A stretch of 64,000 nucleotides of DNA from Bacteroidales bacterium (GTDB lineage Bacteria; Bacteroidota; Bacteroidia; Bacteroidales; P3). Under the pieces are notes generated by a model that was not told the origin of the DNA, did not search any database, and saw only the letters and a program-made list of their open reading frames with translations. The position numbers were made by a program, and so were the translations under genes. Location of the stretch: positions 1 to 64,000 of the forward strand of contig JAFVBB010000005.1 of the NCBI GenBank assembly GCA_017480225.1. The letters run 5' to 3'. Positions 7,191 through 54,210 of the stretch are shown here, piece after piece; the stretch's first letter is position 1; every line of letters starts with the position of its first letter.

Positions 7191-7315
7191 CCGTATAAAC
7201 ACCGTCTGTTCTTCGATTGTTCTCCGATTGTTCTTCGATTGTTCTTCGATATTAAATCGAAGAACAATCGAAGAACAATCGGAGAACAATCGAAGAACAG
7301 ACGGTCCTGGCACGG
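7191..7315. repeat. Hairpin element, copy 1 (perfect 50-bp arms)
   Basis: The core 7201-7305 is an inverted repeat with two 50-base arms that pair perfectly around the 5-base loop ATTAA. Each arm is ACCGTCTG plus 11-bp modules TTCTTCGATTG, TTCTCCGATTG, TTCTTCGATTG and a 9-base partial module. Semi-conserved 10-bp flanks (CCGTATAAAC left; CCTGGCACGG right) extend it to 125 bp. It sits in the 527-base gap 7009-7535, between two minus-strand genes, upstream of the dipeptidase promoter. Apart from the promoter and the terminator at 7478 I see nothing else in that gap. Short ORFs across it are artefacts of the repeat. Confidence 0.95.
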
Positions 7316-7477
7316 CGGCATTGCGTCGTCGTGCATGCTGAAATGCCGTGCCGCCATGCCGTCTGCAGTCCAGTGCGCGGAGCACAGTTCCGGTATTCTG
7401 TTCTGCTTTTCAGTCAGATCAGCTGCCGGCAGTCTTCCCGCTCACGCCCTTGTGGCAGGCCGTGCCGTCGTGTGGGC

Positions 7478-7516
7478 AAAAAGAAAAGGGCGATCCGTCC
7501 GGGTCGCCCTTTTTCT
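7478..7516 (-). terminator. Rho-independent terminator of the exbB-exbD operon
   Basis: On the minus strand a GGGCGA / TCGCCC stem is followed by TTTTCTTTTT. It lies about 20 bases after the last exbD stop. Confidence 0.8.
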
Positions 7517-7535
7517 GTGGTCAGAGTCAATGCCG

Positions 7536-8006
7536 CTACTTGCGTGTGCCTTTGCTGGCATTGTAGAAGATACGGAGTGCGCCCGCCTTGCGGAGCTCTT
7601 GCTTGATGTCGCTGATCATACCCATGCGCACCTGCTTGTCGGCCTTGATGGCCGTGGTGATGTCGGGGCGGTCGGCTTCGGGACGCGCGGTGCGTTCCAG
7701 CTCGACGAAGGTGATGATGTCGCTCAATTCGGCAATCTGGTCGTTCAACTGGATGCGGGGCTCGGTGCCGTACTTCTGCTGCTGGTCGGCAAAGGGTACA
7801 CCGACGTTGATGTAGCTCACCAAGCTTTTCTTTTCCAGTTTGACGACCTCCGACCCTTGCGGCGGGATGATCTTCACGTAGAGCGTGCTCTCGCGCATGG
7901 TGGTGATGACCATGAAGAAGAACAGCAGCATGAAGATGATGTCGCTCATGGAACCCATGTTGAGCGCTGGGGTTTCCTTTGCTTTTTTGCCTGTAAAACG
8001 TGCCAT
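7536..8006 (-). CDS. ExbD/TolR family biopolymer transport protein (second ExbD)
   Basis: This 156-residue inner-membrane protein has a short cytosolic N-terminus, one TM helix (about residues 22-37, SDIIFMLLFFFMVITT) and a periplasmic domain. Asp22 at the start of the helix occupies the position of the conserved proton-path Asp of ExbD. It works with ExbB to power TonB. It is the last gene of the four-gene cluster (exbB, 4-TM protein, exbD, exbD), 3 bases after the previous stop. Two ExbD paralogues in tandem are a common Bacteroidota arrangement and may form a heteromeric stator. Confidence 0.88.
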   Translation of the reverse strand: MARFTGKKAKETPALNMGSMSDIIFMLLFFFMVITTMRESTLYVKIIPPQGSEVVKLEKKSLVSYINVGVPFADQQQKYGTEPRIQLNDQIAELSDIITFVELERTARPEADRPDITTAIKADKQVRMGMISDIKQELRKAGALRIFYNASKGTRK

Positions 8007-8009
8007 AGC

Positions 8010-8579
8010 TTACTTTGCTCCTATCTTAGTGGGTTCTGCCTCGGAGATGGCCACCGGAATTGCCATCTCGATGGCCTTGTGCTGTTCCTTGTTGAGGTCG
8101 GAATAGTGCTTGCCAAAGCGTGTGGTGGCCAACTCGTCGCGCATCTCGTTGATTGCGGCGGTCAACTCGTTCTGCACTTGCAGGTACATGTCGTAGGATG
8201 TGCCGCGGTCGTTGCGGAGCGAGATGACGCCTTTGGAGACTTCATACATGCCCAGTCCGGGAATGTCGACCGGCGTCTTCTCGGGCAGGTTGGGCAGGTT
8301 GTCGGGGTTGCCGAGGAACTCCTTGACACGATCCTTCAAGTCGCTGATGCGGCCATACTCGTTGTTGTAGAGCAGGCGGTCGTCCTTGTTGACGAGCACA
8401 GTGAAGATGTTGCGGTGCTTAACATACGGCGGATCCACGTTGTCTGGCAGCGGAGGCGGCAGACGGCGCGCTATGCCCATGTCCGTGTTGATGTTGCTGA
8501 CCATCAAGAAGAATGCCAGCAGCAGGAACGATATGTCGGACATTGAGCTTGTGTTTAGTCCGGGAGTTTTTCTTGCCAT
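8010..8579 (-). CDS. ExbD/TolR family biopolymer transport protein (first ExbD)
   Basis: This 189-residue protein begins MARKTPGLNTSSMSDISFLL, with one TM helix at about residues 16-30 carrying Asp15 at the membrane edge, then a periplasmic domain of about 150 residues. It shares the N-terminal pattern (MAR..., MSDI, short helix) with the following ExbD, but the periplasmic parts differ, which suggests different contacts. It lies 6 bases downstream of the 4-TM gene in the exbB operon. Confidence 0.88.
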   Translation of the reverse strand: MARKTPGLNTSSMSDISFLLLAFFLMVSNINTDMGIARRLPPPLPDNVDPPYVKHRNIFTVLVNKDDRLLYNNEYGRISDLKDRVKEFLGNPDNLPNLPEKTPVDIPGLGMYEVSKGVISLRNDRGTSYDMYLQVQNELTAAINEMRDELATTRFGKHYSDLNKEQHKAIEMAIPVAISEAEPTKIGAK

Positions 8580-8585
8580 AGCCGT

Positions 8586-9116: not shown

Positions 9117-9201
9117 TGCTTGGTTTCTTTTGTTTTTTGTGTTGTGTGTTTACTGTTCCGGGTGCGTGCATGGCACGCCCACGGCAAAGAAACCTGATGG
9201 C

Positions 9202-10017: not shown

Positions 10018-10080
10018 AATGCTTTTAGTGTGTTGATTATTAAATTATTGTTTAGTTTCGTCACGTAGTTGTTTGGAATG

Positions 10081-10112
10081 CAAATATACGAATTGTTTTT
10101 TTGCCGACCAAA
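10081..10112 (-). promoter_or_regulatory. Bacteroidota-type promoter for exbB operon
   Basis: The minus strand reads TTTG (10112-10109), a 20-base spacer, then TATATTTG (10088-10081), 63 bases before the exbB ATG. Confidence 0.72.
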
Positions 10113-10117
10113 AAAAG

Positions 10118-11107: not shown

Positions 11108-11159
11108 TTGTCAGCGTGGTGTTGTGTGGTGGTGAATGGTTTCTGTTTGCTCATCGTTG

Positions 11160-12278: not shown

Positions 12279-12318
12279 GTGCCCACAACGCGGCTTCGGC
12301 GGTTTTATTGTATGGCTG

Positions 12319-16302: not shown

Positions 16303-17049
16303 TTAGTGTTGTGTGGCAATGTAGTCGCTCACCTTGCGCTTGTCGGCGCTGAAGGTGAGCACGTCGATGGCCGTCTGGTAGTTCTCAGGGTCGAGGCATG
16401 TGTGGTAGGCATGTTTGAGCAGCTCCACCTGCGAGTTGCTGAAGTCGAGCGTGGCCACCAGCCGCGCCGTCTGCCGTGCCGTGAGGAGCGAGGCCGTGGT
16501 CAGCACCTTGCCGAGCGCCAGGCGGTCGCTTTCGTACGACTGCGCCCTCATTCTCACCACCATCGCGTCCACCTCCTCGTCGCTCGCAGGCTCGGCCTCG
16601 TTGTCGTGGTGGCGGGGCTCCGCCGTGCGGCGCCCGATGTCGGCGCGGCTGGCAAGCAGCCCGGCGCCGGGCATCGCGGGAGCCGGCCGCTCGAAGTCGG
16701 CGCGGTTCTGCGCCGCGGTGTAGAGGTAGAGCTGCTCCAGCCTCTGGTCGTAGTTCACGTTGACAATAACGGTGCGGTCCGTGGGGCGCAGCGCCAGCAC
16801 CGCGCACTTGTCGGCCGGGCGCTTCATCACCACCACCACCTCGTGCGTCATGTCGCTCACGTTGTTCACCACCACGTTGCTCTGTGGAAGACGGTTCTGC
16901 AGGTCGCCGTCGACGAATACGCTGAACGTCTCGCCGTGTTGCGAGCTGAAATGCAGCGTGAACTGCTGCGGCGCGGGTTGCGTGAAAGGCTGCGCCGCGG
17001 CAAGCATCGGCAGCAGCGCGGCCAGCAGTGCTATGAAAGGCTTCCTCAT
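16303..17049 (-). CDS. Exported DUF4476 domain protein
   Basis: The start is placed at ATG 17047-17049 (MRKPFIALLAALLPMLAAAQ), a signal peptide; longer frames upstream run through the promoter and the hairpin repeat. The 248-residue product has a beta-sandwich-like N-terminal half (HFSSQHGETFSVFVDGDLQNR), an acidic linker and a helical C-terminal DUF4476 domain of about 90 residues (YESDRLALGKVLTTASLLTARQTARLVATLDFSNSQVELLKHAYHTCLDPENY). DUF4476 is a Bacteroidota/Myxococcota family without known function. It is the first gene of the run leading to the M20D and SGNH genes, 25 bases before the next start. Confidence 0.75.
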   Translation of the reverse strand: MRKPFIALLAALLPMLAAAQPFTQPAPQQFTLHFSSQHGETFSVFVDGDLQNRLPQSNVVVNNVSDMTHEVVVVMKRPADKCAVLALRPTDRTVIVNVNYDQRLEQLYLYTAAQNRADFERPAPAMPGAGLLASRADIGRRTAEPRHHDNEAEPASDEEVDAMVVRMRAQSYESDRLALGKVLTTASLLTARQTARLVATLDFSNSQVELLKHAYHTCLDPENYQTAIDVLTFSADKRKVSDYIATQH

Positions 17050-17280: not shown

Positions 17281-17405
17281 CCGTGTAAAGACCGTCTGTT
17301 CTTCGATTGTTCTCCGATTGTTCTTCGATTGTTCTTCGATTTTGCATCGAAGAACAATCGAAGAACAATCGGACATCAGTCGAAGAACAACCGGCTTTGG
17401 TGCGG
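17281..17405. repeat. Hairpin element, copy 2 (decayed right arm)
   Basis: The left arm 17291-17340 is identical to the other copies (ACCGTCTG plus the four modules). The loop is TTTGC instead of ATTAA/TTAAT. The right arm 17346-17395 carries several unpaired changes (GGACATCAGT in place of GGAGAACAAT, and ACCGGCT in place of GACGGT). It sits in the 569-base divergent gap 17050-17618, between the DUF4476 gene (-) and rnfB (+), whose promoters flank it. I see nothing else in that gap. Confidence 0.9.
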
Positions 17406-17618: not shown

Positions 17619-18512
17619 ATGACTAACGACATTCTGATAGCGGTGGCTGTGCTGGGTGCTTTGGGCATCCTGTTCGCCGTTGTGCTCTTCATCGTGGCCC
17701 AGAAGTTCAAGGTGGAAGAGAACCCGCTGATTGACGAGGTGGCCGACGTGCTTCCCGGTGCCAACTGCGGCGGTTGCGGAAAGGCCGGTTGCCGTGCCTT
17801 CGCCGAGGCTTGTGTGCAGCAGGGCAACATGGAGGGTCTGCGCTGCGCTCCCGGTGGCGACGCCGTGGCCGCAAAGGTGGCCGAGCTGCTCGGCTGCGCC
17901 GTGGCGCAGGGCGAGCCCCAGGTGGCTGTGGTGCGTTGCAATCCTTCGTGCAAGGGCGCTTCCCGCCGCTCGAACTACGACGGCCTCCGCTCGTGCGCTT
18001 TCCAGAACACGGTCTATACCGGCGAGAGCGGCTGCCCGTTTGGCTGCCTGGGCTGCGGCGACTGCGTGGCCGCCTGCCAGTTCGACGCCATCAAGATGGA
18101 TCCCGAGACCGGCGTGCCGGTGGTCGACGCCGACCGTTGCACCGCCTGCGGCGCTTGCGCCAAGGCCTGTCCGCGCCGCATCATAGAGCTTCGCAACAAG
18201 GGTCGCAAGGATCGCAGGGTGTTCGTGAGCTGTGTGAACAAGGAGAAAGGCGCTCAGGCCCGTAAGACCTGCGACAACGCCTGCATCGGCTGCGGCAAGT
18301 GCGAGAAGGTGTGCCCGATGGGTGCCATCACCATTGCCGACAACCTGTCGTACATAGACTTCACCAAGTGCATAGCCTGCCGCAAGTGTGTGGTGGAATG
18401 CCCGACCCACGCCATCCACGACGTAGGCTTCCCCGCCCCGGCCAAGAAGCCAGAGGCCGCTCCGGCACCGGCGCCGGCCGCCCCGCAGGCCGCCAAGACA
18501 ACGGCAGAGTGA
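17619..18512 (+). CDS. rnfB: Rnf electron transport complex subunit B (iron-sulfur)
   Basis: This 297-residue subunit passes electrons from reduced ferredoxin into the Rnf ion pump. An N-terminal TM helix (about residues 5-27) is followed by the RnfB-specific 4Fe-4S motif C50-GG-C53-GKAG-C58 ... C76. Ferredoxin-like repeats follow: CPFGCLGCGDCVAAC, CTACGACAKACP, CIGCGKCEKVCP, CIACRKCVVECP. The tail is Ala/Pro-rich. It is first in the operon B-C-D-G-E. All cluster ligands appear intact. Confidence 0.95.
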   Translation: MTNDILIAVAVLGALGILFAVVLFIVAQKFKVEENPLIDEVADVLPGANCGGCGKAGCRAFAEACVQQGNMEGLRCAPGGDAVAAKVAELLGCAVAQGEPQVAVVRCNPSCKGASRRSNYDGLRSCAFQNTVYTGESGCPFGCLGCGDCVAACQFDAIKMDPETGVPVVDADRCTACGACAKACPRRIIELRNKGRKDRRVFVSCVNKEKGAQARKTCDNACIGCGKCEKVCPMGAITIADNLSYIDFTKCIACRKCVVECPTHAIHDVGFPAPAKKPEAAPAPAPAAPQAAKTTAE

Positions 18513-18550
18513 TTAAACAGCATTTCGTCATTCCAACACGCCATTAGCAA

Positions 18551-19879
18551 ATGAAGACTTTTAAGATGGGTGGTGTACACCCCGAAGAGAACAAAATATC
18601 CAACGATGCCGCCATCGAGGTGATGCCTGTGGGCAAGCAGATGGTGGTGCTCATGAACCAGCACCTCGGCGCCCCGGCCACCCCGGTGGTGCAGAAAGGC
18701 GACAAGGTGAAGGTTGGTCAGCTGATTGGCGAGGCACAGGCGTTCATGTGCGCCAATGTGCATTCGCCCGTGAGCGGCACCGTGCTCAAGATTGACACCT
18801 GCAAGGATGCTTTCGGCATCAGCAAGCCTGCGGTGTATATCAACGTAGAGGGCGACGAGTGGCTGGAGACCATCGACCGCACGCCCGACATCAAGCGCGA
18901 GTGCACCCTTGAGCCGAAGGAGATTGTGGCCAAGTTGAAGGAGATGGGCATCGTCGGCCTCGGCGGCGCCACTTTCCCGGCACATATTAAATATAGCATA
19001 CCCGAAGGGAAAAAGGCCGAATACCTCATCATCAACGCTGCCGAGTGCGAGCCTTACCTCACCTCCGACCTGCGCGTCATGCTTGAGCACGCAGAAGAAA
19101 TATGCATCGGCATCAGCATTCTGCGCAAGGCGCTCGGTGTGCCCGCCGCCTATGTGGGCATCGAGAGCAACAAACCGCAGGCCATCAAGGTGATGACCGA
19201 GACGGCAAGCCGTTTTGAGGGCATCGTGATTGAACCCCTCAAGGTGAAGTATCCGCAGGGAGCCGAGAAGCAACTCATCAATGCCATCACCGGGCGCAAG
19301 GTGCCCAGCGGCAAGCTGCCTATCGATGTTGGTTGCGTGGTTTCCAACGTGGGCACTACATTCGCTGTCTACGAGGCCATTCAGAAGAACAAGCCCCTCA
19401 TTGAGAATATCCTCACCGTGACCGGCAAGGAGCTGCCCTCGCAGCACAACTACATTGTGCGCATCGGCACTACCTATAATGAAATTATCGCCCACAGTAT
19501 CGGCCAACTGCCCGAGACCACAGGCAAGGTTATCAGCGGTGGCACCATGATGGGCAAGGCTGTGGCCAACCTCGACGCGCCGACCGTGAAGGGTAACGCC
19601 AGTGTGCTCGTCATTGGTGAGAAAGAGGCGCGCCGCAATCCTGAGACGGCCTGCATCCGCTGCGGCAAGTGCATGAACGCCTGCCCGATGGGCCTTGAGC
19701 CATACCTCTTCTCCGCCCTGGTGAAGAATGGCCGCACTGACGAGAGCCGCCAGCACAATATACTCGACTGCATAGAGTGTGGCTGCTGCTACTTCAGCTG
19801 CCCGGCAAACAAGCCGCTGCTCGACGAGATACGCCTCGGCAAAAACCGCGTCCGCGCAGCCATGGCCGCAAAGAAATAA
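18551..19879 (+). CDS. rnfC: Rnf electron transport complex subunit C
   Basis: This 442-residue peripheral subunit reduces NAD+. It starts with the family's KMGGVHPEENK segment, has an NADH/FMN-binding region with the Gly-rich GLGGATFPAHIKY, and ends with two 4Fe-4S motifs: C368-IR-C371-GK-C374-MNA-C378-P and CIECGCCYFSCP from C407. Complete. It lies 38 bases after rnfB. Confidence 0.95.
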   Translation: MKTFKMGGVHPEENKISNDAAIEVMPVGKQMVVLMNQHLGAPATPVVQKGDKVKVGQLIGEAQAFMCANVHSPVSGTVLKIDTCKDAFGISKPAVYINVEGDEWLETIDRTPDIKRECTLEPKEIVAKLKEMGIVGLGGATFPAHIKYSIPEGKKAEYLIINAAECEPYLTSDLRVMLEHAEEICIGISILRKALGVPAAYVGIESNKPQAIKVMTETASRFEGIVIEPLKVKYPQGAEKQLINAITGRKVPSGKLPIDVGCVVSNVGTTFAVYEAIQKNKPLIENILTVTGKELPSQHNYIVRIGTTYNEIIAHSIGQLPETTGKVISGGTMMGKAVANLDAPTVKGNASVLVIGEKEARRNPETACIRCGKCMNACPMGLEPYLFSALVKNGRTDESRQHNILDCIECGCCYFSCPANKPLLDEIRLGKNRVRAAMAAKK

Positions 19880-22585: not shown

Positions 22586-25500
22586 ATGAAAAAGTCGCTG
22601 GCTGTTCTGTCGTTCATGGCCGCCATGCTCGCATTTGGAGTGGGGTGGTCGCAGACCATTGTTAGGGTCGATTCAGTGCGTAACGGCACGACCATTAACC
22701 TCGGCGGCAGCGGCGTGGAACTGCACGACGACGACTCGCAGGGAGAGGGTGCGCCAACAGCTGGCTCATACAAGAAAGGCATCGACTACTGGGTCACGTT
22801 GGCCGGTGGTTGCAGTGACCCTCTGCGTATGGTTGTCCGTGTTGACGAGTTACAGGTAAGTTGCCTTGACACGGTGTATATTTACGAGGGCAACGGGACC
22901 GGCGGCCCACTGCTGGCGAAGTTCAACAGTTTCAGTGGTGGTGTTGGTGTGGGCGACCTTATCATGGAGAGCCCGACCAACGCCACGGGCATGATTACAG
23001 TGCGCCTTGTCACCGACGACAGGACAGACTCCACACGAACCAGCCTCTCATGCTACCAGAATTACCCAAATCTCGACAAGGGCTTCAAGTTCAGCGTCTA
23101 TTGCATGAGTCCATGTGAATCGGTGGTGCCGGTTATTGAGGACAAATTCTACCGCACCCGCAATGGTGTGATTTACGACTCGGCCTACATCCACGAGATT
23201 ACCATTATTGACACGTTCTATGTTGTTCCCGACGACCCCACGTCCGGCATAGATTACATCAATGAGAACACCTTCATTGGCGCCAACCTTTGTATAGGTG
23301 ACGGTGTGATTTTCAACGGCCGCGGCGAGTACTCCAACAAGTTCGGCTACTACATGGCGAGCGATGCGACCACCTACTTCCGTTGGGATTTGGGCAACGA
23401 GGGCGACTCGATAGTTGGCTTCGGCGCTACGCAAATCACTTATGAAGACTACCAAAGCACGGGCTGTTTCGATGTGAGGCTTGACCTTGTTGATGAGTTC
23501 GGCTGCCGCAGCACGCAAAACAGCATCATCCGCGTGCGCACCGCCATGAACCCCATCAAGTCAATTTTCACCCTCGACGACATGTGCAACCGCGACTCTA
23601 TGGTGGTGAACATGGGCTACGGTGAGGGCGACGCTGTTCTCACGCTGGCGCGAATACAGAGTGACTCGTCGGTGTCGAAGACCTTCTCTGTGCGAACCTT
23701 CATTCCCGACGGTTGCGGCTGTCCTGCGGGCAACTACTTCGAGGCTCCGGTCACATTCACCGAGTTCCCCAACAGCAAGAAAGTTACCAGCGCGGCCGAC
23801 ATCTGCTCCATTTGTATCAATATGGAGCACTCTTACATGGCCGACATCGCAATAGCCATCGTCTGCCCCGAGGATTCTATCGCCTACCTCAAGTACGGCC
23901 GCTCCACCTCGTGCCCCAGGCCTGACAGGATGCCCGCGAAGCCTTCGGGCTCGGCTGGCAGCGCCGATTGCTATAAGGAGGGCACCGGTATTCGCCTCGG
24001 TGCGTCGTTGACCGGCAATTACGACGTCAACTCCAGTCTGTGCGACTCGCTTGCCAATCCGTATGGCATCGGAATGGACTACTGCTTCAGCCGCGACACC
24101 AACTATACGCTGGTCACCGGCGAAAGGGCTGGTGACGTGTGGGATGCGACCAACCTTCACCCCAACGGAGACTTCAATATCGGCAAGAATGCCAAGATTG
24201 ACCCCACGCCAGTTGTCTTCCCCGCCGTGCCTTCTCCTTTCTATGCTGCGGGTTCAATGCCAAACGCCCTGACCCTTAACATCAAGAGACCCAGCGACCA
24301 CGACAACAGGACTGACTACTACCTGCCTTATGCCACCTTCGACGAGCTGGTGGGCTGCTCGCTTAACGGAGAGTGGAAGATACGTGTGTACGACATGATG
24401 GGCAAGGACAATGGCTGGATATTCAGTTGGACGCTTGACATCTGCAACGTCAGTGCCAATGGCTGCGACTATCAGGTTGACATCGACTCAATCCTCTGGG
24501 TGCCCGACCCCGACCCCATGTACCACGACTACGACCTGGGCCATTATCGCGGCGCGGAGGTGCACGAGAAGACTCCGATTATCAGCCATGTGCTCACGCC
24601 CGACACCGCAGGCACCTTCCCCATCTTGGTGCATATCTACGACGAGTTCGGCTGCCAGTGGGACACCTCGACTGTGATTACCACCCACTGGACTCCGAAG
24701 CCCGACCTCGGCCCCGACACCGCTCTCTGCGGCATTGACCGTATGGTCCTCGACGCCAGCGACGACCATGCTGCCTCGCAGAACTACAGCTATGGTTGGC
24801 TGCCCACCGGTGAGTCAACCCCGACCATCGAGACACGCCAGGATCCAGGCGAGGACATCACCTACGTCGTCGAGGTGCAGAACAAGACCAAGCGCGTCAC
24901 CTGCGTCACGCGCGACACCATCACCGTCGGCACGCGCCAGCAGCCGTTGCCCAACATCATTCCTGATCCCTTCGTATTTGAGGGGTGCGACCCGTTCACC
25001 ATCCACTTCGAGAACAACACCGTGAACGGGGACATACATCGTTGGTACTTTGGCGACGGCGCCACCTCGAGCGAAGCCAGCCCGACGCACACCTACAATG
25101 TCGGCACCTTCGACCTGCGCTACTACGTCTATTCCGGCGATGGATGCGTCGACTCAATCATCAGCCCGCAGTCCATCAGCGTCTTCCCCTCGCCCAAAGC
25201 CTCCTTCTCGTGGGCTCCGACCTATCCCTCGGTGACCGACCCGATGCTCTCGCTCACAAACCTCACCTCGCCAAAGTCGGCCAACACCAACTACTTCTGG
25301 GAGGTGCAGTACAACCTCGATAACCCATTCTCGGTTGAGACAATGACCGAGGAGAGCCCCGTGTTCGACATCACGCAGTATTTCCCCGACAACCCCGCGG
25401 GCAACTATTCCATACGCCTCATCTCGCGCTCGGACAACCTCGCTCCGTCGGGCAACATGATTTACTGCGCCGACACCTCGGAGAACACCATCCTTGTTGT

Positions 25501-25783
25501 CAACGACTTCCTGCAATTCCCCAACGTGGTGACCCCCAATGGCGACGGCGTCAACGACCGCTTCGAGGTGAAGAACCTCATTGAGGGCTTGGCCTACCCG
25601 ACCAACTCGCTGACAATCTACAACCGCTGGGGCGCAAAGATCTACCATCGCGAGAATCTGTCAAACCCGGAGGACTACTGGGATCCCTCCGGACTGCCTA
25701 CAGGCACCTATTTCTTCCACTTCACCGGTCGGGGCTACAATGGCACCGTAGAGCGAAATGGAGCAATAGAGGTTATTTATTAG
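22586..25783 (+). CDS. Large T9SS type B (CHU_C) cargo protein with P-domain-like and PKD modules
   Basis: This 1065-residue secreted protein has a signal peptide (MKKSLAVLSFMAAMLAFGVGWSQ). The middle contains a proprotein-convertase P-domain-like module (SICINMEHSYMADIAIAIVCPEDS ... LNGEWKIRVYDMMGKDNGWIFSWTLDIC). A PKD domain follows (RWYFGDGATSSEASPTHTY) and Ig-like beta segments. The last about 90 residues (FPNVVTPNGDGVNDRF ... IYNRWGAKIYH ... GTYFFHFTGRGYNG) form the gliding-motility-associated type B sorting domain used by the type IX secretion system. No protease triad is visible, so it is more likely an adhesin or matrix protein. Last gene before the terminator at 25813. Confidence 0.88.
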   Translation: MKKSLAVLSFMAAMLAFGVGWSQTIVRVDSVRNGTTINLGGSGVELHDDDSQGEGAPTAGSYKKGIDYWVTLAGGCSDPLRMVVRVDELQVSCLDTVYIYEGNGTGGPLLAKFNSFSGGVGVGDLIMESPTNATGMITVRLVTDDRTDSTRTSLSCYQNYPNLDKGFKFSVYCMSPCESVVPVIEDKFYRTRNGVIYDSAYIHEITIIDTFYVVPDDPTSGIDYINENTFIGANLCIGDGVIFNGRGEYSNKFGYYMASDATTYFRWDLGNEGDSIVGFGATQITYEDYQSTGCFDVRLDLVDEFGCRSTQNSIIRVRTAMNPIKSIFTLDDMCNRDSMVVNMGYGEGDAVLTLARIQSDSSVSKTFSVRTFIPDGCGCPAGNYFEAPVTFTEFPNSKKVTSAADICSICINMEHSYMADIAIAIVCPEDSIAYLKYGRSTSCPRPDRMPAKPSGSAGSADCYKEGTGIRLGASLTGNYDVNSSLCDSLANPYGIGMDYCFSRDTNYTLVTGERAGDVWDATNLHPNGDFNIGKNAKIDPTPVVFPAVPSPFYAAGSMPNALTLNIKRPSDHDNRTDYYLPYATFDELVGCSLNGEWKIRVYDMMGKDNGWIFSWTLDICNVSANGCDYQVDIDSILWVPDPDPMYHDYDLGHYRGAEVHEKTPIISHVLTPDTAGTFPILVHIYDEFGCQWDTSTVITTHWTPKPDLGPDTALCGIDRMVLDASDDHAASQNYSYGWLPTGESTPTIETRQDPGEDITYVVEVQNKTKRVTCVTRDTITVGTRQQPLPNIIPDPFVFEGCDPFTIHFENNTVNGDIHRWYFGDGATSSEASPTHTYNVGTFDLRYYVYSGDGCVDSIISPQSISVFPSPKASFSWAPTYPSVTDPMLSLTNLTSPKSANTNYFWEVQYNLDNPFSVETMTEESPVFDITQYFPDNPAGNYSIRLISRSDNLAPSGNMIYCADTSENTILVVNDFLQFPNVVTPNGDGVNDRFEVKNLIEGLAYPTNSLTIYNRWGAKIYHRENLSNPEDYWDPSGLPTGTYFFHFTGRGYNGTVERNGAIEVIY

Positions 25784-25958: not shown

Positions 25959-26072
25959 CAATGTCAACACCGTCTGTTCTTCGATTGTTCTCCGATTGTT
26001 CTTCGATTTAATATCGAAGAACAATCGAAGAACAATCGGAGAACAATCGAAGAACAGACGGTGTTGATATGG
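25959..26072. repeat. Hairpin element, copy 3 (left arm short by one 11-bp module)
   Basis: The core 25969-26062 has left modules TTCTTCGATTG, TTCTCCGATTG and the partial, the loop TTAAT, and the full four-module right arm ending CAGACGGT. The left arm lacks exactly one 11-bp module. Both flanks match the conserved type (ATGTCAAC left; GTTGATATGG right). It lies in the 518-base gap 25784-26301, between the T9SS cargo gene and dnaG. The rest of that gap is AT-rich with the terminator at its left and the dnaG promoter at its right. Confidence 0.95.
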
Positions 26073-26281
26073 GGTGAGCAGTGCGGAATATGCTTTTTGG
26101 AGGGTGCTGTCGCCGGGACTTTGCCGGAGGCGGTGCCGCCGCGTGTCGGCAGAGGGTGCGATTGCGGGTGCATTGTGTAATGGTTTGACAGGCCGATGGT
26201 TTAATCTGCCGTGACGCAAGTTCGCGCCGGTGCCCGACGCTTTTATTTCGATATGGGGGTGCCCATGTCGGAAAAAATTAG

Positions 26282-26289
26282 TAAATTTG
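26282..26289 (+). promoter_or_regulatory. -7 element (TAAATTTG) for the dnaG operon
   Basis: The box ends 12 bases before the dnaG ATG at 26302, so initiation about 6-7 bases downstream would leave a leader of under 10 bases. The -33 element is not evident. Confidence 0.6.
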
Positions 26290-26301
26290 CACTCTCATTC
26301 T

Positions 26302-28302
26302 ATGATTGACCAGGACACAATACAGCGCATAAAGGATACGGCCAGGATAGAGGAGGTGATTGGCGACTTCGTGAGCCTGAAGAAGCGCGGCGCCAACCAC
26401 ATTGGCTGCTGTCCGTTCCACAACGAGAAGACCCCCTCGTTCTACGTGTCGCCGTCGAAGGGCATCTACAAGTGCTTCGGTTGCGGCGAGGCCGGCGATG
26501 TCGTGAAGTTCCTCGAAAAGCACGAGCACTACACCTATGTCGAGTCCCTGCACTGGCTGGCGCACAAGTACAACATCGATGTGCGCGAGGAGGAACTCAC
26601 CGACGAGGAGCGGCAGCGGCAGACCGAGCGCGACGGCCTCTTCCACGTGAGTGAGTTTGCGCAGAGGCATTTTGCCGACCTTCTGTGGAACAACGACCTG
26701 GGGCGTGCCGTGGGGTTGAGCTATTTTCGCAAGCGCGGCATGAGCGACGCCATCATAGAGCGTTTCGGCCTGGGCTACTGCCTCGACGAGTGGAGCGAGT
26801 TCACAGACTATGCGCTGGCCAACGGTTACAGCGAGTCGGTGCTGGCGAAGACCGGCCTTACAATTGTGAATGAGGAGAGCGGCAGGCGTCACGACCGGTT
26901 TCGCGGCCGCGTGATGTTCCCCATCTACAGCGTGAGCGGGCGCGTGCTGGGCTTCAGCGGGCGCGTGCTGTCGTCGGAAAAGCAGGCGGCCAAGTACGTC
27001 AACTCGCCCGACAGCGACATCTACAACAAGAGCCGTGTGCTCTACGGCCTCTTCCAGGCCAGGTCGGCCATCGCGAAAGCTGACAAGTGCTACCTGGTCG
27101 AGGGCAACATCGACGTGGTCAGTATGCACCAGTCGGGTGTGGAGAACACCGTGGCTTCGTGCGGCACGTCGCTCACCGTGGAGCAAATAAGGCTCATACG
27201 CCGCTACACGCCCAACGTCACGGTGCTTTACGACGGCGACAAGGCCGGCATAAAGGCCTCGATGCGCGCCGTTGACCTGCTTTTTGCCGAGGGGATGCAC
27301 GTGCGCCTGGTGCTGTTCCCCGACGGCGACGACCCCGACAGCTATGCCCAGCGCCACGGCTCCACAGCCTTGCAGGAGTACCTGCGCACCCACGAGGAGA
27401 ACTTCATCATGTTCAAGACGCGTGTCACGCTGGAGAGCATCGGCGGCGATCCCATCGGTCGCGCCACGCTCATTAGCGACACCGCGCGCAGCATAGCGCT
27501 GGTGAGCGACCTGCTTGAGCGCTCGGAGTATATTCGTCAGTGCTCACACCTGCTGCATGTCGACGAGGAGGCGCTGTCGGTGGCGGTGGGCAAGGCTGCC
27601 GCCGCCGCGCGTGCGAAGGCAGCCGAGAAGGCTGTGACGCAGCCTGCCCAGCCGGCGCCGCCTGCGGACGACGTCGAGCCAGCCGAGGCTGATGACCCTG
27701 TGGCGACAGCGGAGCCCGTGCACTACACGCCAGCCGCGCCACCGGCGGTGGAGCGGCGCATCGTTGCCCTGTTGCTCAACAACGGCAACGATATGTTGAC
27801 CCAGGAGTTCAAGGACGACAACGGCAACGTCACTCCAGTCTCCAGCACTGTGGCCGAGGTTATAGTGGGCGAGCTGCAGAAGGATGGCCTGACGCTGTCC
27901 CATCCGCTGTGCCAGCGCATCTATGAGCAGTGTGTGCTGATGCTCGACCTCACGCAGCGTATCGACCCCTCCCGTTTTGTGGAGAGCCCCGACGAGCAGC
28001 TGCGCACCTTCGCGGTCACCTTGATGATGGACACGGTGCGGATCAGCGACACCTGGGCAGACAAGGGAGTCTACGTGCCTTCGCTCGGCGACAACCTGCT
28101 GCAGGAAGTCTCCGAGACCATCTTCACATTCCAGAGCCAGTGCCTGGCTCGCACCATGGCCAGGCTGCGCGAGCGGTTGCGCGACGCCGACCCCGACACG
28201 CAGCGCTCGCTGCTTGCCGAACTGCAGCTCTACACCAAGGCGAGCCATGAGCTGGGCGGAAAACGCAACATTATCATAGCGCCGCGCTACAGAAACATGT
28301 AA
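26302..28302 (+). CDS. dnaG: DNA primase
   Basis: This 666-residue enzyme makes RNA primers at the replication fork. The start at ATG 26302 (MIDQDTIQRIKDTARIEEVI) matches the family; an in-frame codon at 26230 would add a non-conserved leader and lies before the promoter. The zinc finger has ligands C37, H40, C58, C61 (CCPFHNEKTPSF ... YKCFGCGEAGD). RYFKKRG-like SYFRKRGMSD is in the catalytic core, and TOPRIM motifs YLVEGNIDVV and LYDGDKAG carry the metal-binding acids. An Ala/Pro-rich linker (about residues 430-480) leads to a helical C-terminal DnaB-interaction region. Complete. Confidence 0.96.
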   Translation: MIDQDTIQRIKDTARIEEVIGDFVSLKKRGANHIGCCPFHNEKTPSFYVSPSKGIYKCFGCGEAGDVVKFLEKHEHYTYVESLHWLAHKYNIDVREEELTDEERQRQTERDGLFHVSEFAQRHFADLLWNNDLGRAVGLSYFRKRGMSDAIIERFGLGYCLDEWSEFTDYALANGYSESVLAKTGLTIVNEESGRRHDRFRGRVMFPIYSVSGRVLGFSGRVLSSEKQAAKYVNSPDSDIYNKSRVLYGLFQARSAIAKADKCYLVEGNIDVVSMHQSGVENTVASCGTSLTVEQIRLIRRYTPNVTVLYDGDKAGIKASMRAVDLLFAEGMHVRLVLFPDGDDPDSYAQRHGSTALQEYLRTHEENFIMFKTRVTLESIGGDPIGRATLISDTARSIALVSDLLERSEYIRQCSHLLHVDEEALSVAVGKAAAAARAKAAEKAVTQPAQPAPPADDVEPAEADDPVATAEPVHYTPAAPPAVERRIVALLLNNGNDMLTQEFKDDNGNVTPVSSTVAEVIVGELQKDGLTLSHPLCQRIYEQCVLMLDLTQRIDPSRFVESPDEQLRTFAVTLMMDTVRISDTWADKGVYVPSLGDNLLQEVSETIFTFQSQCLARTMARLRERLRDADPDTQRSLLAELQLYTKASHELGGKRNIIIAPRYRNM

Positions 28303-31628: not shown

Positions 31629-31753
31629 CTATGCCAGGACCGTCTGTTCTTCGATTGTTCTCCGATTGTTCTTCGATTGTTCTTCGATTTAATATCGAAG
31701 AACAATCGAAGAACAATCGGAGAACAATCGAAGAACAGACGGCCTTGACACGG
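31629..31753. repeat. Hairpin element, copy 4 (near-perfect 50-bp arms)
   Basis: The core 31639-31743 has the full four-module arms pairing perfectly around the loop TTAAT, except the outermost base. Flanks are CTATGCCAGG left and CTTGACACGG right. It lies in the 341-base gap 31595-31935, between miaA and the PurF-like gene, 35 bases after the miaA stop. The promoter for the next gene is at 31821; I see nothing else there. Confidence 0.95.
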
Positions 31754-31935: not shown

Positions 31936-33348
31936 ATGAGCGGGTTTTTCGGCGTGGCGAGCACGCGTCCCTGTATCACAGATTTGTTCTACGGAACAGA
32001 TTATCATTCGCATCTTGGCACCAAGCGTGCCGGCATGGCAACCTTTGACGGCAGCCAGCCCCACCAGAACATCCACAACATCCAGAACTCGCATTTCCGC
32101 CCCAAGTTCATGAAGGACCTGGCCGAGATGACCGGCAACGTGGGCATTGGCGTGATCAGCGACACGGAGGCGCAGCCCGTGATGGTGAACTCGCACCTGG
32201 GGCGCTTCGCGCTGTGCACGGTGAGCAAGATCAACAACCTTGCCGAGCTCGAGGGCGAGTGCCTGCGCAACCACCAGCAGTTCACCGACCTCTCCATGGG
32301 TGGCACCAACCCCACCGAGCTTGTGGCGCTGCTTATCTCGCAGGGCGATGACTTCGTGAGCGGCATCGAGAATGTGTACAAGAAGGTGAAGGGCTCGTGC
32401 TCGATGCTCATCCTCACCCCCGACGGCATCATCTGCGCGCGCGACCGCTACGGCCGCACGCCGATAGTGGTGGGCCGCCGCGGCGACGACTATGCCGTGG
32501 CCAGCGAGAGCCACTCCTATGTCAACCTCGGCTACGAGACGTGCCGCTTCGTCGGCCCAGGCGAGGTGGTGAAGGTCAGTGTGGAGGGCGGCATCAAGGT
32601 GCTGCGTCCGGCCGAGGAGCGCAACCAGATTTGTTCTTTCCTGTGGATATACTACGGCTATCCCTGCACCGAGTATGAGGGAGTGAACGCCGAGGAGGTG
32701 CGCTACAGCCTGGGCCGCATTATGGGTGAGCGCGACGATGTGCAGGCCGACTTTGTGAGTCCCATACCAGACAGCGGCATTGGCATGGCCCTCGGCTACA
32801 GCAACGGCCGCCGCATACCCTACAAGCGCGGCCTGTTGAAATACACGCCCACGTGGAGCCGCTCTTTCATGCCCGTGAACCAGGCCGACCGCTTCCTGGT
32901 GGCCAAGATGAAGCTCATTCCGAGCCGCGCTGTGCTGCAGGGCAAGGAGGTGGTGTTCTGCGACGACTCGATAGTGCGCGGCACCCAACTGCGCGACAAC
33001 GTCAAGATGCTCTACGACTACGGTGCCCGCAAGGTGCATGTGCGCATCAGCTGCCCGCCGTTGGTGCACGGCTGCACATTCCTCAACTTCAGCGCCAGCA
33101 AGACTGACCGCGAGCTCATCACGCGCCGCGTGATCGAGGAGCTGGAGGGCGGCAGCGTGCGCCGCCTCGAGGCCTACCAGGACGCTACCACCCAGGAATA
33201 TGCCCGTATGGTGGAGGTGATACGCCAGCATGTGGGTGTGGACACCCTCAAGTTCAACACCGTCGACGACGTTTGCCAGGCCATAGGCCTGCCGAAGCAG
33301 AGCATCTGCACGCACTGCTTCGATGCAAGCTCATACGGCGACAAGTAA
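31936..33348 (+). CDS. Amidophosphoribosyltransferase-like protein with Ser at the nucleophile position
   Basis: This 470-residue protein aligns with PurF throughout: an N-terminal class II glutamine amidotransferase-like domain, then a phosphoribosyltransferase domain with FCDDSIVRGT (PRPP loop, Asp343-Asp344). The four cysteines that bind the 4Fe-4S cluster in the Bacillus enzyme appear conserved: C233 (ICSF), C380 (HGC), C458 and C461 (CTHC). The usual start MCGIxG is here MSGFFGV, so the N-terminal Cys nucleophile is Ser. The protein may be ammonia-dependent, use Ser, or have another job. A separate canonical purF is expected elsewhere. Monocistronic promoter upstream; the next gene starts 18 bases after. 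Confidence 0.82.
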   Translation: MSGFFGVASTRPCITDLFYGTDYHSHLGTKRAGMATFDGSQPHQNIHNIQNSHFRPKFMKDLAEMTGNVGIGVISDTEAQPVMVNSHLGRFALCTVSKINNLAELEGECLRNHQQFTDLSMGGTNPTELVALLISQGDDFVSGIENVYKKVKGSCSMLILTPDGIICARDRYGRTPIVVGRRGDDYAVASESHSYVNLGYETCRFVGPGEVVKVSVEGGIKVLRPAEERNQICSFLWIYYGYPCTEYEGVNAEEVRYSLGRIMGERDDVQADFVSPIPDSGIGMALGYSNGRRIPYKRGLLKYTPTWSRSFMPVNQADRFLVAKMKLIPSRAVLQGKEVVFCDDSIVRGTQLRDNVKMLYDYGARKVHVRISCPPLVHGCTFLNFSASKTDRELITRRVIEELEGGSVRRLEAYQDATTQEYARMVEVIRQHVGVDTLKFNTVDDVCQAIGLPKQSICTHCFDASSYGDK

Positions 33349-35248: not shown

Positions 35249-36679
35249 ATGAGGAACGCTAACTTTATTGACCGCGACAAGCTGTACTCCATGCTGCATG
35301 GAACTCCGCCGACCAAGACTCGCCTTGCCGAGATACTTGAAAAATCAAGGCAACTCAAGGGTTTGTCGCTTGCCGAGGTGGCCGAGCTGCTGCTTGTCGA
35401 CGACGCCGAAGGCCGCCGTAGCATACTGGATGCTGCTGAGTATTGCAAGAATGAGATTTATGGACGCAGGCTGGTGCTCTTCGCGCCAATCTATACGGGC
35501 AATGCCTGTGTGAACAATTGCGTGTACTGCGGCTTCCGTCGCGACAATAAGAGCTTGCGCCGCAAGGTGCTCACGCTCGACGAGGTTGAGACCGAGGCTC
35601 TCCACCTGCTGCGCATGGGTCACAAGCGAGCCTTGCTCATCTGTGGCGAAAGCCCGCGCAACGGCATCGACTATATGGTCGAGGCCATCCGCCGCACCTA
35701 TGCCGCCCGCGACGAGAAGGGCAGTACCATCCGCCGCATCAATGTTGAGCTGGCGCCGATGAGCGTGGAGGACTACGCGCGCCTCAAGGCCGAGAAGATT
35801 GGCACCTACGTGTGTTTCCAGGAGACCTACGACCCGGTGGAGTATGCCAAGTATCACCCGGAGGGTACGCCAAAGGCCGACTACCTGAACAGGCTCACCT
35901 GCATGGATCGCGCCATGGAGGGCGGTATAGACGATGTGGGCATAGGGGTGCTGTTCGGCTTGGCCGACCACCGCTTCGAGATACTGGCCTTGATGGAACA
36001 TGCCCGCCACCTGGAGGAGGATTTTGGCTGTGGCCCCCACACCGTGAGCTTCCCGCGAATAGAGCCCGCCGAGGGCACACCATTCTCACAGCCCGAGAAC
36101 CTGCCTCACCCTGTTGGCGACGACGACTTCATGAAGATTGTCGCCATCATCCGCATAGCCATGCCATACACCGGCATCATCATCAGTACCCGCGAGCGGT
36201 CTGCCATGCGCGACCAGTTGGTGCGCTACGGCGCAAGCCAGATCAGTGCAGCCAGCGAGACCAATCCTGGCGGTTACGACGAGGAGGGCGACCACACGGC
36301 GGCCAGCCCCTATGAGAAGACAGGCGACACTGGAGCCCAGTTTACCCTCGGCGACCACCGCTCGCTCGACGAGGTGGTGTCGGCCATGGTTGACGGTGGC
36401 TATATCCCGTCGTTCTGCACCGGATGCTACCGCAAGGGGCGCGTCGGTGCCGACTTCATGGACTTGGCCAAGCCAGGCTTGATTAAAGAGTATTGCAAGC
36501 CCAATGCCATGTTCACCTTCCGCGAGTACCTGGAGGACTATGCCTCGCCATCCACGCGCGAGAAGGGGCTGCGGCTGCTCAGGCAACTTGCGCAGACATT
36601 TCCGCGCGAGGAACTTCGCCAGCGTGTAGAGTCGACGCTTGAAAAGATTGGCGAGGGTCAGCGAGACCTCTATTTTTAG
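35249..36679 (+). CDS. hydG: [FeFe]-hydrogenase H-cluster maturation radical SAM tyrosine lyase HydG
   Basis: This 476-residue radical SAM enzyme splits tyrosine to make the CO and CN- ligands of the hydrogenase H-cluster. The SAM cluster motif is C87-VNN-C91-VY-C94. The HydG-specific C-terminal auxiliary cluster motif CX2CX22C is exact (C390-TG-C393 ... C416, in FCTGCYRKGRVGADFM), which separates it from ThiH. GGYDEEGDHTA and ASQISAASETNPGG are conserved parts of the barrel. No hydE, hydF or hydrogenase gene is nearby, which is unusual for this gene. Confidence 0.94.
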   Translation: MRNANFIDRDKLYSMLHGTPPTKTRLAEILEKSRQLKGLSLAEVAELLLVDDAEGRRSILDAAEYCKNEIYGRRLVLFAPIYTGNACVNNCVYCGFRRDNKSLRRKVLTLDEVETEALHLLRMGHKRALLICGESPRNGIDYMVEAIRRTYAARDEKGSTIRRINVELAPMSVEDYARLKAEKIGTYVCFQETYDPVEYAKYHPEGTPKADYLNRLTCMDRAMEGGIDDVGIGVLFGLADHRFEILALMEHARHLEEDFGCGPHTVSFPRIEPAEGTPFSQPENLPHPVGDDDFMKIVAIIRIAMPYTGIIISTRERSAMRDQLVRYGASQISAASETNPGGYDEEGDHTAASPYEKTGDTGAQFTLGDHRSLDEVVSAMVDGGYIPSFCTGCYRKGRVGADFMDLAKPGLIKEYCKPNAMFTFREYLEDYASPSTREKGLRLLRQLAQTFPREELRQRVESTLEKIGEGQRDLYF

Positions 36680-43898: not shown

Positions 43899-43907
43899 AA
43901 CAGGCTG

Positions 43908-43915
43908 CAAAGATA
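43908..43915 (-). promoter_or_regulatory. -7 element (TATCTTTG) for tsaD-sprF-ompA
   Basis: The minus strand reads TATCTTTG, only 9 bases from the tsaD ATG, implying a leader of a few bases at most. Confidence 0.6.
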
Positions 43916-44068
43916 CACAAAAAAAACGAATGCTTCGCGCGCGGGCTGAAAAAAGAGCCTCGCGCCGCCGCCATGGCCTGTAAACCAGCGCTCTGCGCCG
44001 CGCGGCGCCCAGCCTGCGTCAGCCTTGCGCGCAACCGCCTCACTCTCAGCGACGACACCGTGCTGCCT

Positions 44069-44182
44069 CCGTGTCAACACCGTCTGTTCTTCGATTGTTC
44101 TCCGATTGTTCTTCGATTGTTCTTCGATTTAATATCGAAGAACAATCGAAGAACAATCGAAGAACAGACGGCCCTGGGGCGG
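44069..44182. repeat. Hairpin element, copy 5 (right arm short by one 11-bp module)
   Basis: The core 44079-44172 has a full left arm, the loop TTAAT and a right arm missing exactly the CAATCGGAGAA module. Flanks are CCGTGTCAAC left and CCTGGGGCGG right. It lies in the 421-base divergent gap 43899-44319 between tsaD (-) and the small barrel gene (+). The rest of the gap holds the two promoters. Confidence 0.95.
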
Positions 44183-44247
44183 CCTTGGTCCGGCGGTCGG
44201 CAAATGTTAAAAATTGGTTTTCTTGCCTCCATTTCGAAAAATTAACC

Positions 44248-44255
44248 TATCTTTG
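44248..44255 (+). promoter_or_regulatory. -7 element (TATCTTTG) for the small barrel protein gene
   Basis: TATCTTTG 64 bases before the ATG at 44320, with TTG at 44223-44225 upstream (22-base spacer). The leader ends in a sequence shared with the gene at 62588 (GTATAACAyATTAAAAAACA). Confidence 0.65.
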
Positions 44256-44319
44256 CACTGCGAAAAGAAAGGTCGCAAACGAGCAAACAACAGTATAACA
44301 CATTAAAAAACAACACAAA

Positions 44320-48005: not shown

Positions 48006-48009
48006 GCCG

Positions 48010-49899: not shown

Positions 49900-50070
49900 G
49901 CCGGGTCCGATGCCGCCTTGTCGTCGAAAAGCGAGATATTGATATTTTGTGTGGCCTGAGATTTAGCAGCCTGATACCATGCATTATAGTTGCCCAGTTT
50001 GGCGTGCAGGGTAGGGGATTGCCTCAGTCGTCGTAGACGGCAATGCGTAAATCGTTGACGCGACACACTT

Positions 50071-50670: not shown

Positions 50671-50676
50671 GGCCGA

Positions 50677-51819: not shown

Positions 51820-51827
51820 AATGGTTG

Positions 51828-53084: not shown

Positions 53085-53088
53085 TGCG

Positions 53089-53910
53089 TCAGTTTTCAAT
53101 TTTGCCGATTAATGAGTCGAAGAATTTGCCTATCTGGGCGTAGAAGAGGTCGCGGTCGGGCTCGTAGGGCAGCACGTGGTGCTTGTTCTTCATGGCGAAG
53201 TCGACCAGCTCGGGGTTGGCGTCGGGCGAGCCCACGATGACGCCGTGCGAGTAGGTGATGGCGGCCTTCATCAGCCCCAGGTAGGTCGTGTCGCCATACA
53301 GGCGCAGGTCTTTCGCCGTGGCGTTGTCGGCCTTCATCTTGCGCTCCAGGTCGCCCCCGATGCGCCCCTCGAAGCCCCCGGCGGTGAGCGTGATGACCAT
53401 CTTCGTGCCCGAGAAGAAGGCGTTCTCCTTGTTGATGCGGCGCATGTAGAAGGGTATCATCGACGTGAACCACCCGCCGAAGTTCACCAGGTGGGGCTGC
53501 CAGGCCAGCTTGCGCACGGCCTCGAGCGAGCCGCGCCCGAAGAAGAGCAGCTGCTCGTCGCAGTCTGGCCGCGTCGTGCCGTCGGCTTCGAGCGGCGACT
53601 CGACACCGGCGAAGTACTCGTCGTTGTCGATGAAGTACACCTGCATCCTGGCCGAGGGTATGGAGCCAACTTTGATTATGAGCTGGTGGTCGCAGTTGTT
53701 CAGAATCAAGTTCATGCCGCTGAGCCTGATTACCTCGTGCAGCTGGTGCTTGCGCTCGGCCACGCCGGCGAATTTGGGCATGAAAACCCTGATCTCGCGC
53801 CCGGTCTCCTGCATCTTGGCAGGCAGATAGCGCCCCATCGCGGCCAGCTCGCTCTCGCTGCTGAACGGCATAATCTCTTGGTTTACAAACAGTATTCGTC
53901 CTTTACCCAT
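53089..53910 (-). CDS. Short glycogen/starch synthase family protein (GT5 N-terminal domain only)
   Basis: Start ATG 53908-53910 (MGKGRILFVNQEIMPFSSESELAAMGRYLP). The 273-residue protein corresponds to the N-terminal catalytic half of GlgA-type synthases: ISQEI-like VNQEIMPF, MPKFAGVAERKHQLHEVIRLSG, MQVYFIDNDEYFAG, and a C-terminal YSHGVIVGSPDAN segment. The second GT-B half found in full-length GlgA (about 480 residues) is absent. This is a recurrent Bacteroidota form, not obviously a truncation. Whether it synthesises glucan alone is open. It heads the operon to DUF4270, MORN and maf. Confidence 0.85.
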   Translation of the reverse strand: MGKGRILFVNQEIMPFSSESELAAMGRYLPAKMQETGREIRVFMPKFAGVAERKHQLHEVIRLSGMNLILNNCDHQLIIKVGSIPSARMQVYFIDNDEYFAGVESPLEADGTTRPDCDEQLLFFGRGSLEAVRKLAWQPHLVNFGGWFTSMIPFYMRRINKENAFFSGTKMVITLTAGGFEGRIGGDLERKMKADNATAKDLRLYGDTTYLGLMKAAITYSHGVIVGSPDANPELVDFAMKNKHHVLPYEPDRDLFYAQIGKFFDSLIGKIEN

Positions 53911-53937
53911 AACCGTGAGTATATTTTTTCCGTGCTG

Positions 53938-53968
53938 CAAAATTACAAATTTTTTCTCAATTGGCAAA
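53938..53968 (-). promoter_or_regulatory. Bacteroidota-type promoter for the glycogen-synthase-like operon
   Basis: On the minus strand TTTG (53968-53965), a 19-base spacer, then TAATTTTG (53945-53938); the ATG is 27 bases on. Confidence 0.75.
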
Positions 53969-54085
53969 AACGAATTTCAGCATCACAGGCTGTGGCGGGC
54001 GGCGGTGTGCGTCAACGGCTTGGAGTGCTGGCGGTTGCACGTGCCGTAAGCCCTGCCGCCGCCCTGCGCCGGGATGCCTCCAAGT

Positions 54086-54210
54086 CCGTGCCAGGACCGT
54101 CTGTTCTTCGATTGTTCTCCGATTGTTCTTCGATTGTTCTTCGATATTAAATCGAAGAACAATCGAAGAACAATCGGAGAACAATCGAAGAACAGACGGT
54201 GTTGATATGG
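54086..54210. repeat. Hairpin element, copy 6 (perfect 50-bp arms)
   Basis: The core 54096-54200 is identical to copy 1 (loop ATTAA). The flanks are swapped: CCGTGCCAGG is on the left here and on the right, as its complement, in copy 1, so this copy is inserted in the opposite orientation. It lies in the 486-base divergent gap 53911-54396 between the glycogen-synthase-like gene (-) and the AddA-like gene (+). I see no clear promoter for the AddA-like gene in that gap. Confidence 0.95.

Follow-up and report, generated by a model that had tools for sequence, protein, structure and literature searches.

An 11-bp-phased lattice of mutually exclusive intergenic arrays in a Bacteroidales genome: candidate protein-binding sites along the chromosome

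The stretch of DNA considered here, referred to as the window, comprises bases 1-64000 of contig 15 in the genome of a Bacteroidales bacterium designated G000 (2.05 Mb, 22 contigs, 97.6% complete); other G labels denote relatives, and L labels denote sequence stretches. Six copies of a hairpin-forming array built of 11-bp modules, the F1 family, lie between genes of the window (Table 1), genes being called with a codon-usage script of this analysis, not with a standard annotator. A preliminary description had reported six copies, each with the same 50-base arm in both halves. All six were confirmed, and the full arm is present at least once in every copy, but full-length arms on both sides are found in only four (including the copy at 17291, whose right arm is degraded), the copies at 25969 and 44079 having one short arm. 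Likewise, the fixed place of a TCC-type module, also claimed there, holds for all six left arms but not for every right arm, that at 44079 lacking the module. Three copies occupy divergent gaps, as described before, and three occupy co-directional ones. Strong hairpins are predicted for all six cores, with folding energies of -61.4 to -89.6 kcal/mol and z-scores of -12.5 to -20.7. The flank listed in Table 1 serves as an example; those of the other copies are similar or weaker.

Table 1. F1 arrays of the window, one flank, and the gaps in which the arrays lie
Feature	Position	Structure	Gap and neighbouring genes
F1 array	7201..7305	both 50-bp arms perfect, with a 5-nt centre; RNA fold -89.6 kcal/mol, z -20.6	co-directional: minus-strand genes 5641-7065 (M20 peptidase) / 7536-7949
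F1 array	17291..17395	one arm canonical, right arm degraded (GGACAT, AACCGGC)	divergent: 16303-17049 (-) / RnfB-like 17619-18512 (+)
F1 array	25969..26062	94 bp; left arm 39 bases, right arm 50	tandem: CHU_C protein gene 22586-25783 / dnaG 26230-28302
F1 array	31639..31743		tandem, upstream of PurF-like gene 31936-33348
F1 array	44079..44172	94 bp; left arm 50, right arm 39 (one module shorter, without TCC-type module)	divergent, 43899-44319
F1 array	54096..54200	perfect arms	divergent: 53089-53910 (-) / UvrD-helicase-like gene 54334-57711 (+)
Flank	54201..54239 (+)	11-bp register carried on by two TTGA modules, then CTGN5CAG at 54229-54239	

The copies reach far beyond the window. In the whole G000 genome, 221+233 matches to TTCTTCGATTGTTCT were found and none to a reversed-pattern control, and hairpin centres number 66 with one search pattern and 68 with another. 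Within 589,751 bp of G000 (709,751 bp were examined in all), 41 F1 copies were located, which extrapolates to approximately 140 in 2.05 Mb; together with a second family, F2, the count is 58 in the same 589,751 bp and about 200 by extrapolation, so that the earlier expectation of hundreds of copies was right in order of magnitude. The 29 F1 copies in the first 449,751 bp all lie outside called genes, with 10 copies in divergent gaps, 15 in tandem gaps, and 4 in convergent gaps. The copies are near-identical at unrelated places, and no exact 22-base match was found in viral contigs. The modules are contiguous, without unique spacers, and the arrays are therefore not clustered regularly interspaced short palindromic repeats (CRISPR), as had been stated from the window alone.

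The F2 family was recognized when k-mers were counted in the intergenic DNA left after F1, and it consists of 11-bp modules such as TCCTACTCAAC, which are unlike those of F1. A period-11 scan of the first 449,751 bp returned 48 regions, all intergenic (29 F1, 17 F2, and two others, both beside an F2 copy), while in the same DNA control periods 10 and 13 gave none, period 12 none between genes, and periods 9 and 14 one intergenic region each. Six contigs totalling 1.37 Mb yielded 119 period-11 arrays between genes (115 once neighbours were merged) and three in genes, compared with nine intergenic arrays for six control periods combined. In 1.91 Mb that had not been selected by motif, 76 period-11 arrays were detected (42 in G000 and 34 elsewhere), against 8, 12, 0, 5, 0, 7, and 3 for periods 8, 9, 10, 12, 13, 14, and 15, respectively. 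Low-complexity segments were kept in the early scans (first-look, other-genera, and PurF-region) and dropped in all later ones. Divergent gaps are preferred overall (48/113 array gaps vs 51/265 other gaps, P 6e-6). As a separate observation, a CTAG-rich intergenic palindromic array with a 9-bp period, the only intergenic 9-bp array found on contig C1, lies at G000:C1:258521-258665 (L168, ~18521-18665) and adjoins an F1 copy at C1:258,670.

The 11-bp register is not confined to the conserved core. Among 52 F1 copies passing a mismatch filter, identity in the first flanking 11 bp is 0.92 on one side and 0.76 on the other; in successive 11-bp steps outward it falls on one side through 0.92, 0.68, 0.57, 0.53, 0.46, and 0.38, and the background level is reached some five units out on side A and three to four units out on side B, with no edge. 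Weaker TTGA-type outer modules carry the register on, TTG[AG] being found at one phase of 11 in 65/80 cases in flank A and 31/41 in flank B. Since the distal side of F2 also shows TTGN at 11-bp steps, F1 and F2 resemble alternative cores of a single locus type. The number of modules differs among copies by whole 11-bp units. In addition, the motif CTGN5CAG occurs 51 times within 70 bp of arrays, summed over six contigs, compared with approximately 8.7 expected. Over 2,184 positions in the same 52 copies, 12 changes fall in arm A and 162 in arm B, a contrast that is partly one of construction, since arm A is defined as the arm with fewer changes and copies missing a module inflate B. Changed base pairs total 171, of which three are altered on both sides and 168 on one side only; pairing is thus not visibly maintained. 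The orientation of the conserved arm seemed partly aligned with the local GC skew (last 80 kb of G000:C14 vs the rest; C1), an observation made without a control.

With regard to spacing, arrays less than 600 bp apart were merged beforehand (four merges), and the null was a random choice among eligible gaps in 10,000 draws. In G000 overall, the minimum distance between arrays is 4.9 kb and the mean spacing is 9.4-11.2 kb, which agrees with the density of one per about 10 kb that the window had suggested. The pattern was first found on contig C1 (265,751 bp; 12 F1 and 12 F2 arrays, 24 in all; mean 11.2 kb, minimum 5.0 kb), where the coefficient of variation (CV) of the spacing is 0.35 vs 0.84±0.15 for random placement (0/10,000 draws). 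Contig C14 (260 kb), then fetched as a test, carries 28 arrays (mean 9.5 kb, minimum 4.9 kb) with a CV of 0.37 vs 0.89±0.15 (0/10,000), and the six arrays of the window have a CV of 0.24 (P 0.007). Two relatives gave similar results: contig C5 of G036 (280 kb, 21 arrays, CV 0.47, P 0.0007) and contig C13 of G020 (200 kb, 12 arrays, minimum 9.4 kb, CV 0.37, P 0.001), 80 kb of each contig having been known before the spacing test. Three further null models gave the same picture. The exclusion also operates between families, F1 and F2 arrays being at least 4.9 kb apart (minimum distance, P 0.023 on C1 and 0.0007 on C14), and of the 109 gaps on three G000 contigs that are 100 bp or longer and free of arrays, 85 lie within 4.8 kb of an array. 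What these data establish is a period of 11 bp, a location between genes, exclusion of one array by another over roughly 5 kb in G000 (F1 against F2 included), and a register extending beyond the core. The six hairpins of the window are the present-day sequence of one family among such 11-bp-phased arrays.

In relatives, the letters of the modules change readily. The F1 pattern TTCTTCGATTGTTCT is present in 6/190 genomes of the family. The more general TTCTTCG-N4-TTCTTCG occurs in 51/190, many with single matches and 17 with at least five, the tetramer varying by species among the matches listed; a reversed TTCTTCG control matched few genomes, mainly G066, whose array itself holds the reversed pattern. 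Across the order, TTCTTCG-N4-TTCTTCG was found in 14/149 genomes, including G000, mostly as single matches. Stretches from other species of the genus, taken without motif selection, contain period-11 arrays of quite different modules. At least five of 78 relatives with enough upstream sequence have an 11-bp array of other modules upstream of PurF (L047, L057, L065, L078, and L120), a number that the density of arrays may suffice to explain. Arrays near PurF also occur in metagenome-assembled genomes (MAGs) with only 70-74% PurF identity (L089, L100, and L120). None of the 80 PurF loci of relatives (two with less than 200 bp upstream) carries an F1-like hairpin, their gaps being too diverged for a clean empty site. 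Farther away, 14 stretches from other genera of the family gave three weak hits (G167, G175, and G183), and 13 other genomes of the order (11 stretches of 20 kb, one of 10 kb, and one of 552 bp) gave one weak AT-rich period-11 hit, in G303. In G218, from another family of the order, two TTCTTCG arrays were found in two motif-chosen stretches and none in five others; they are palindromic, with an 11-bp period (L298, 12723-12840; L300, 5461-5602), and apparently of low density. Their presence outside the genus suggests transfer or convergence.

Perfect palindromic arrays with ACGGTAGTATT and TGTACGGTATA modules were seen in L181 (G041) and in L193 and L195 (G026), with a similar centre, CGCTT-NNN-AAGCG. 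As these palindromes are made of other modules, the palindromic form seems to have had more than one origin or to have spread repeatedly. An F2-like array of TCTTACTCATG modules is located at 11250-11336 of L214 (G120), whose DnaG identity is 69%; F2-type modules either predate the species or were exchanged. A separate AT-rich tandem repeat of 72 bp was also noted in G026 (L194, 5287-5497; L195, 10928-10994); it recurs at another place on the contig.

The hairpin is not a constant feature of the arrays. Strong hairpins are formed by 41/41 F1 arrays on three contigs and by 1/17 F2 arrays, and in relatives by 7/24 arrays of G041, 0/21 of G036, and 0/12 of G020 (one weak). The palindrome is accordingly regarded as an optional form, namely two opposed half-arrays, and not as the working principle. 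Because G036 and G020 keep period and spacing without strong hairpins and compensatory changes are few, DNA rather than RNA appears to be what matters, and the constancy of pitch, place, and distance suggests that the DNA is recognized in its double-helical form. Our preferred reading, held tentatively and at somewhat less than even confidence, is that the arrays are protein-binding sites phased to one helical turn, which would form a chromosome-wide lattice and perhaps mark domain boundaries. A DNA-binding array, with 11 bp close to one turn, was among the options of the preliminary description and is the one that survives best, although the binding itself is something we infer. Each module would present a binding surface once per turn on one face of the helix; a protein might nucleate on the conserved core and spread outward, in register, onto the weaker modules; and the bound array could mark or anchor the spacer between genes. 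Selection would then keep such sites several kilobases apart as boundaries or anchors of chromosome domains, and module sequence could change freely if protein and sites co-evolve or if periodicity outweighs the letters. A stronger version, in which some 200 arrays, one per approximately 10 kb, are hard-wired domain boundaries or anchors whose recognition sequence turns over like a satellite while 11-bp pitch and minimum spacing are conserved, seems possible but doubtful. The even distribution expected of a boundary or anchor is seen in G000, G036, and G020, and in G041 only for the minimum distance.

Several results weigh against this binding-site reading. The 24 arrays on contig C4 of G041 (300 kb) are not significantly even (CV 0.73, P 0.14), although the closest two are 3.1 kb apart, farther than expected by chance (P 0.0024). 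On each of the five contigs tested, the CV is matched by random placement under a hard exclusion distance (P 0.12 to 0.74), so that exclusion, not a clock, is what the spacing demonstrates. Almost nothing indicates that domain size has an upper limit; only on C1 does the longest gap fall slightly short of the hard-exclusion prediction (P 0.045). The 24 arrays of G041 fall into nine module clusters, and several families per genome are hard to explain by one sequence-specific protein. No significant common motif was found among 27 module clusters (information content 5.39 vs 5.01±0.18 shuffled; maximum of 25 shuffles, 5.47). Only 46/115 arrays have CTGN5CAG within 70 bp, and the arrays of G036 favour convergent gaps (12/21). 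Positions are not clearly conserved: an array is present in both genomes compared at 7/165 ortholog upstream gaps (odds ratio 2.5, P 0.13), and among 63 adjacent gene pairs kept in both, 62 have no array in either and one has an array only in G000. That conservation of position could not be demonstrated is partly due to the distance of the relatives: in a search of 119 genomes of the genus, DnaG identity reached 71% at best. Finally, near-identical copies at unrelated places imply that something copies them.

The last point leads to the chief rival, a non-autonomous mobile repeat with target immunity, copied by a putative transposase that recognizes the array or its CTGN5CAG flank. Insertion would be barred up to about 5 kb away from any copy already in place, and even spacing would be a by-product. 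This we consider a serious possibility, if on balance an unlikely one. It would account for the near-identical copies, the multi-copy families in each genome, the little sign of positional conservation, the sufficiency of hard-core exclusion for the CV, and the enrichment of CTGN5CAG; the exclusion scale is also the same as that of Mu cis-immunity (about 5 kb). On the other side stand the lack of sharp ends, the mutual exclusion of families with different modules, and the enzymes. No match to Y1_Tnp (PF01797), the domain of REP-associated tyrosine transposases (RAYT; REP, repetitive extragenic palindromic), was found in G000 or in the array-bearing G036 and G024, which leaves the RAYT-driven REP-like element proposed earlier without support; 28/41 genus genomes searched do contain the domain. 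Matches to rve (PF00665), a domain that covers IS21 IstA and TnsB-like enzymes and may or may not take in MuA, are absent from five of the six array-bearing genomes, including G000, and number three in G026. Tn3 transposase was found in none of the six, and transposase families other than Y1_Tnp, rve, IstB, and Tn3 were not searched. Five IstB matches above the cut-off lie in open frames of 484-523 aa, which are probably DnaA. For reverse transcriptase, RVT_1 gave one match in G000 (G000:C20:76410-77003) and none in G036 and G024. As array movers, none of the RAYT, rve, IstB, Tn3, and reverse transcriptase genes tracks the arrays. A miniature inverted-repeat transposable element (MITE) with defined ends, another earlier suggestion, is not borne out either, as no terminal inverted repeats or sharp ends were seen in the 52 F1 copies, whose identity fades on both sides of the core.

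This gradual fading is what would be expected if existing intergenic loci were overwritten by a conversion-like process (concerted evolution), with new 11-bp units arising mid-array and the arrays being a functionless, minisatellite-like by-product. The embedding of F1 cores in TTGA-type outer modules of the same register, the TTGN steps of F2, and module numbers differing by whole units fit as well, yet overwriting alone would not produce even spacing or exclusion between families, and slippage has no reason to choose 11 whatever the sequence, which makes this account rather improbable. Selection against gene loss by recombination between nearby copies would be expected to impose a minimum distance between like copies; F1 and F2, however, have different modules and are kept apart all the same, and we give this explanation scarcely any credence. 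Action of the hairpin as RNA, either as a source of long double-stranded RNA, as had been proposed, or as a bidirectional terminator or processing signal, is nearly as hard to credit. The folding energy of perfect F1 copies (Table 1) and the strong hairpins of all F1 arrays speak for it; against it, two-sided changes are almost lacking and F2, G036, and G020 arrays are mostly or wholly without strong hairpins, the latter two keeping period and spacing. Neither TTTT nor AAAA occurs within 20 bases on either side of the six cores, and arrays lie in all gap types, with an excess in divergent gaps, where there is nothing to terminate; the earlier argument against a terminator is thereby strengthened. 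With gathering scores as the threshold, Rfam 15 found nothing in the window and just two tRNAs across a further 140 kb holding F1 and F2 copies.

Several known systems resemble the arrays in part. The matS, SlmA, and Noc sites are dispersed chromosome-organising sites, each a single conserved sequence; the arrays are likewise many and dispersed and differ in that their sequence varies from genome to genome, and also inside one genome, and yet period and exclusion are retained. BrickBuilt of Porphyromonas gingivalis is a MITE with a minisatellite of 23-nt units, present in 19 copies in ATCC 33277, with a leader and a tail bearing terminal inverted repeats and duplications at 3/4 intact copies (PMC4596501). 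It is comparable in its Bacteroidales host, intergenic position, tandem short units with a flanking leader, and unit number varying between copies, but the G000 arrays have a period of 11, seen doubled at 22 and never at 23, and no edges, and the word 'spacing' does not appear in the paper on BrickBuilt. PINSR, a 188-bp repeat of the Prevotella intermedia group with 177 and 184 intergenic copies in two strains (PMC4755523), is similarly intergenic, lineage-specific, found in Bacteroidales, and devoid of terminal inverted repeats; it differs, on a comparison of descriptions only, in being one sequence family for which the excerpt reports no 11-bp period or even spacing. REP elements and bacterial interspersed mosaic elements (BIME) are short intergenic palindromes, more than 100 per genome, associated with RAYT transposases (PMC2817692), and one BIME was reported to impede supercoil diffusion (PMC6907758). 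The abundance of short intergenic palindromes is shared by F1 but not by F2, G036, or G020, whose arrays in the latter two genomes are not palindromic, and a chromosome-organising role has been proposed for REP/BIME too; G000, however, has no RAYT match, and 11-bp phasing with module exchange at kept spacing is not part of the REP/BIME descriptions as excerpted. Mu cis-immunity is strongest around 5 kb and decays to 25 kb (PMC7350765), a length similar to that of the exclusion, but five of six array genomes lack rve. BrickBuilt, REP/BIME, MITEs, and PINSR have in common with the arrays that they are dispersed repeats between genes, but BrickBuilt, REP/BIME, and MITEs each differ from them in at least one feature tested here. 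Evenly spaced 11-bp arrays with exchangeable sequence were not found described in the open-access literature, subscription papers and preprints lying outside the search. We consider the lattice, in which pitch and exclusion distance hold while the letters are free to vary, to be categorically new, its function being inferred. As candidate barriers about 10 kb apart that can be read from sequence, the arrays would open the question of chromosome domains to test in this lineage; if they are mobile instead, they would represent repeats of exchangeable sequence that are subject to target immunity, the copying enzyme being of a kind unsearched here or new.

Some further features of the arrays and the window were recorded. 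TAnnTTTG was found on 38/61 gene-start sides of arrays, and 11/22 gene-end sides 40 bp or longer have a terminator-like hairpin; both are counts without a control, and neither is used as evidence. The best named matches of the PurF-like protein of the window are at most 90% identical and belong to Bacteroidales MAGs, many with rumen or ruminant-gut names. Two window proteins contain CHU_C, a signal domain of the type IX secretion system (T9SS). The window also encodes, besides the RnfB-like protein, a HydG-like [FeFe]-hydrogenase maturase (35249-36679), a combination consistent with a fermentative anaerobe.

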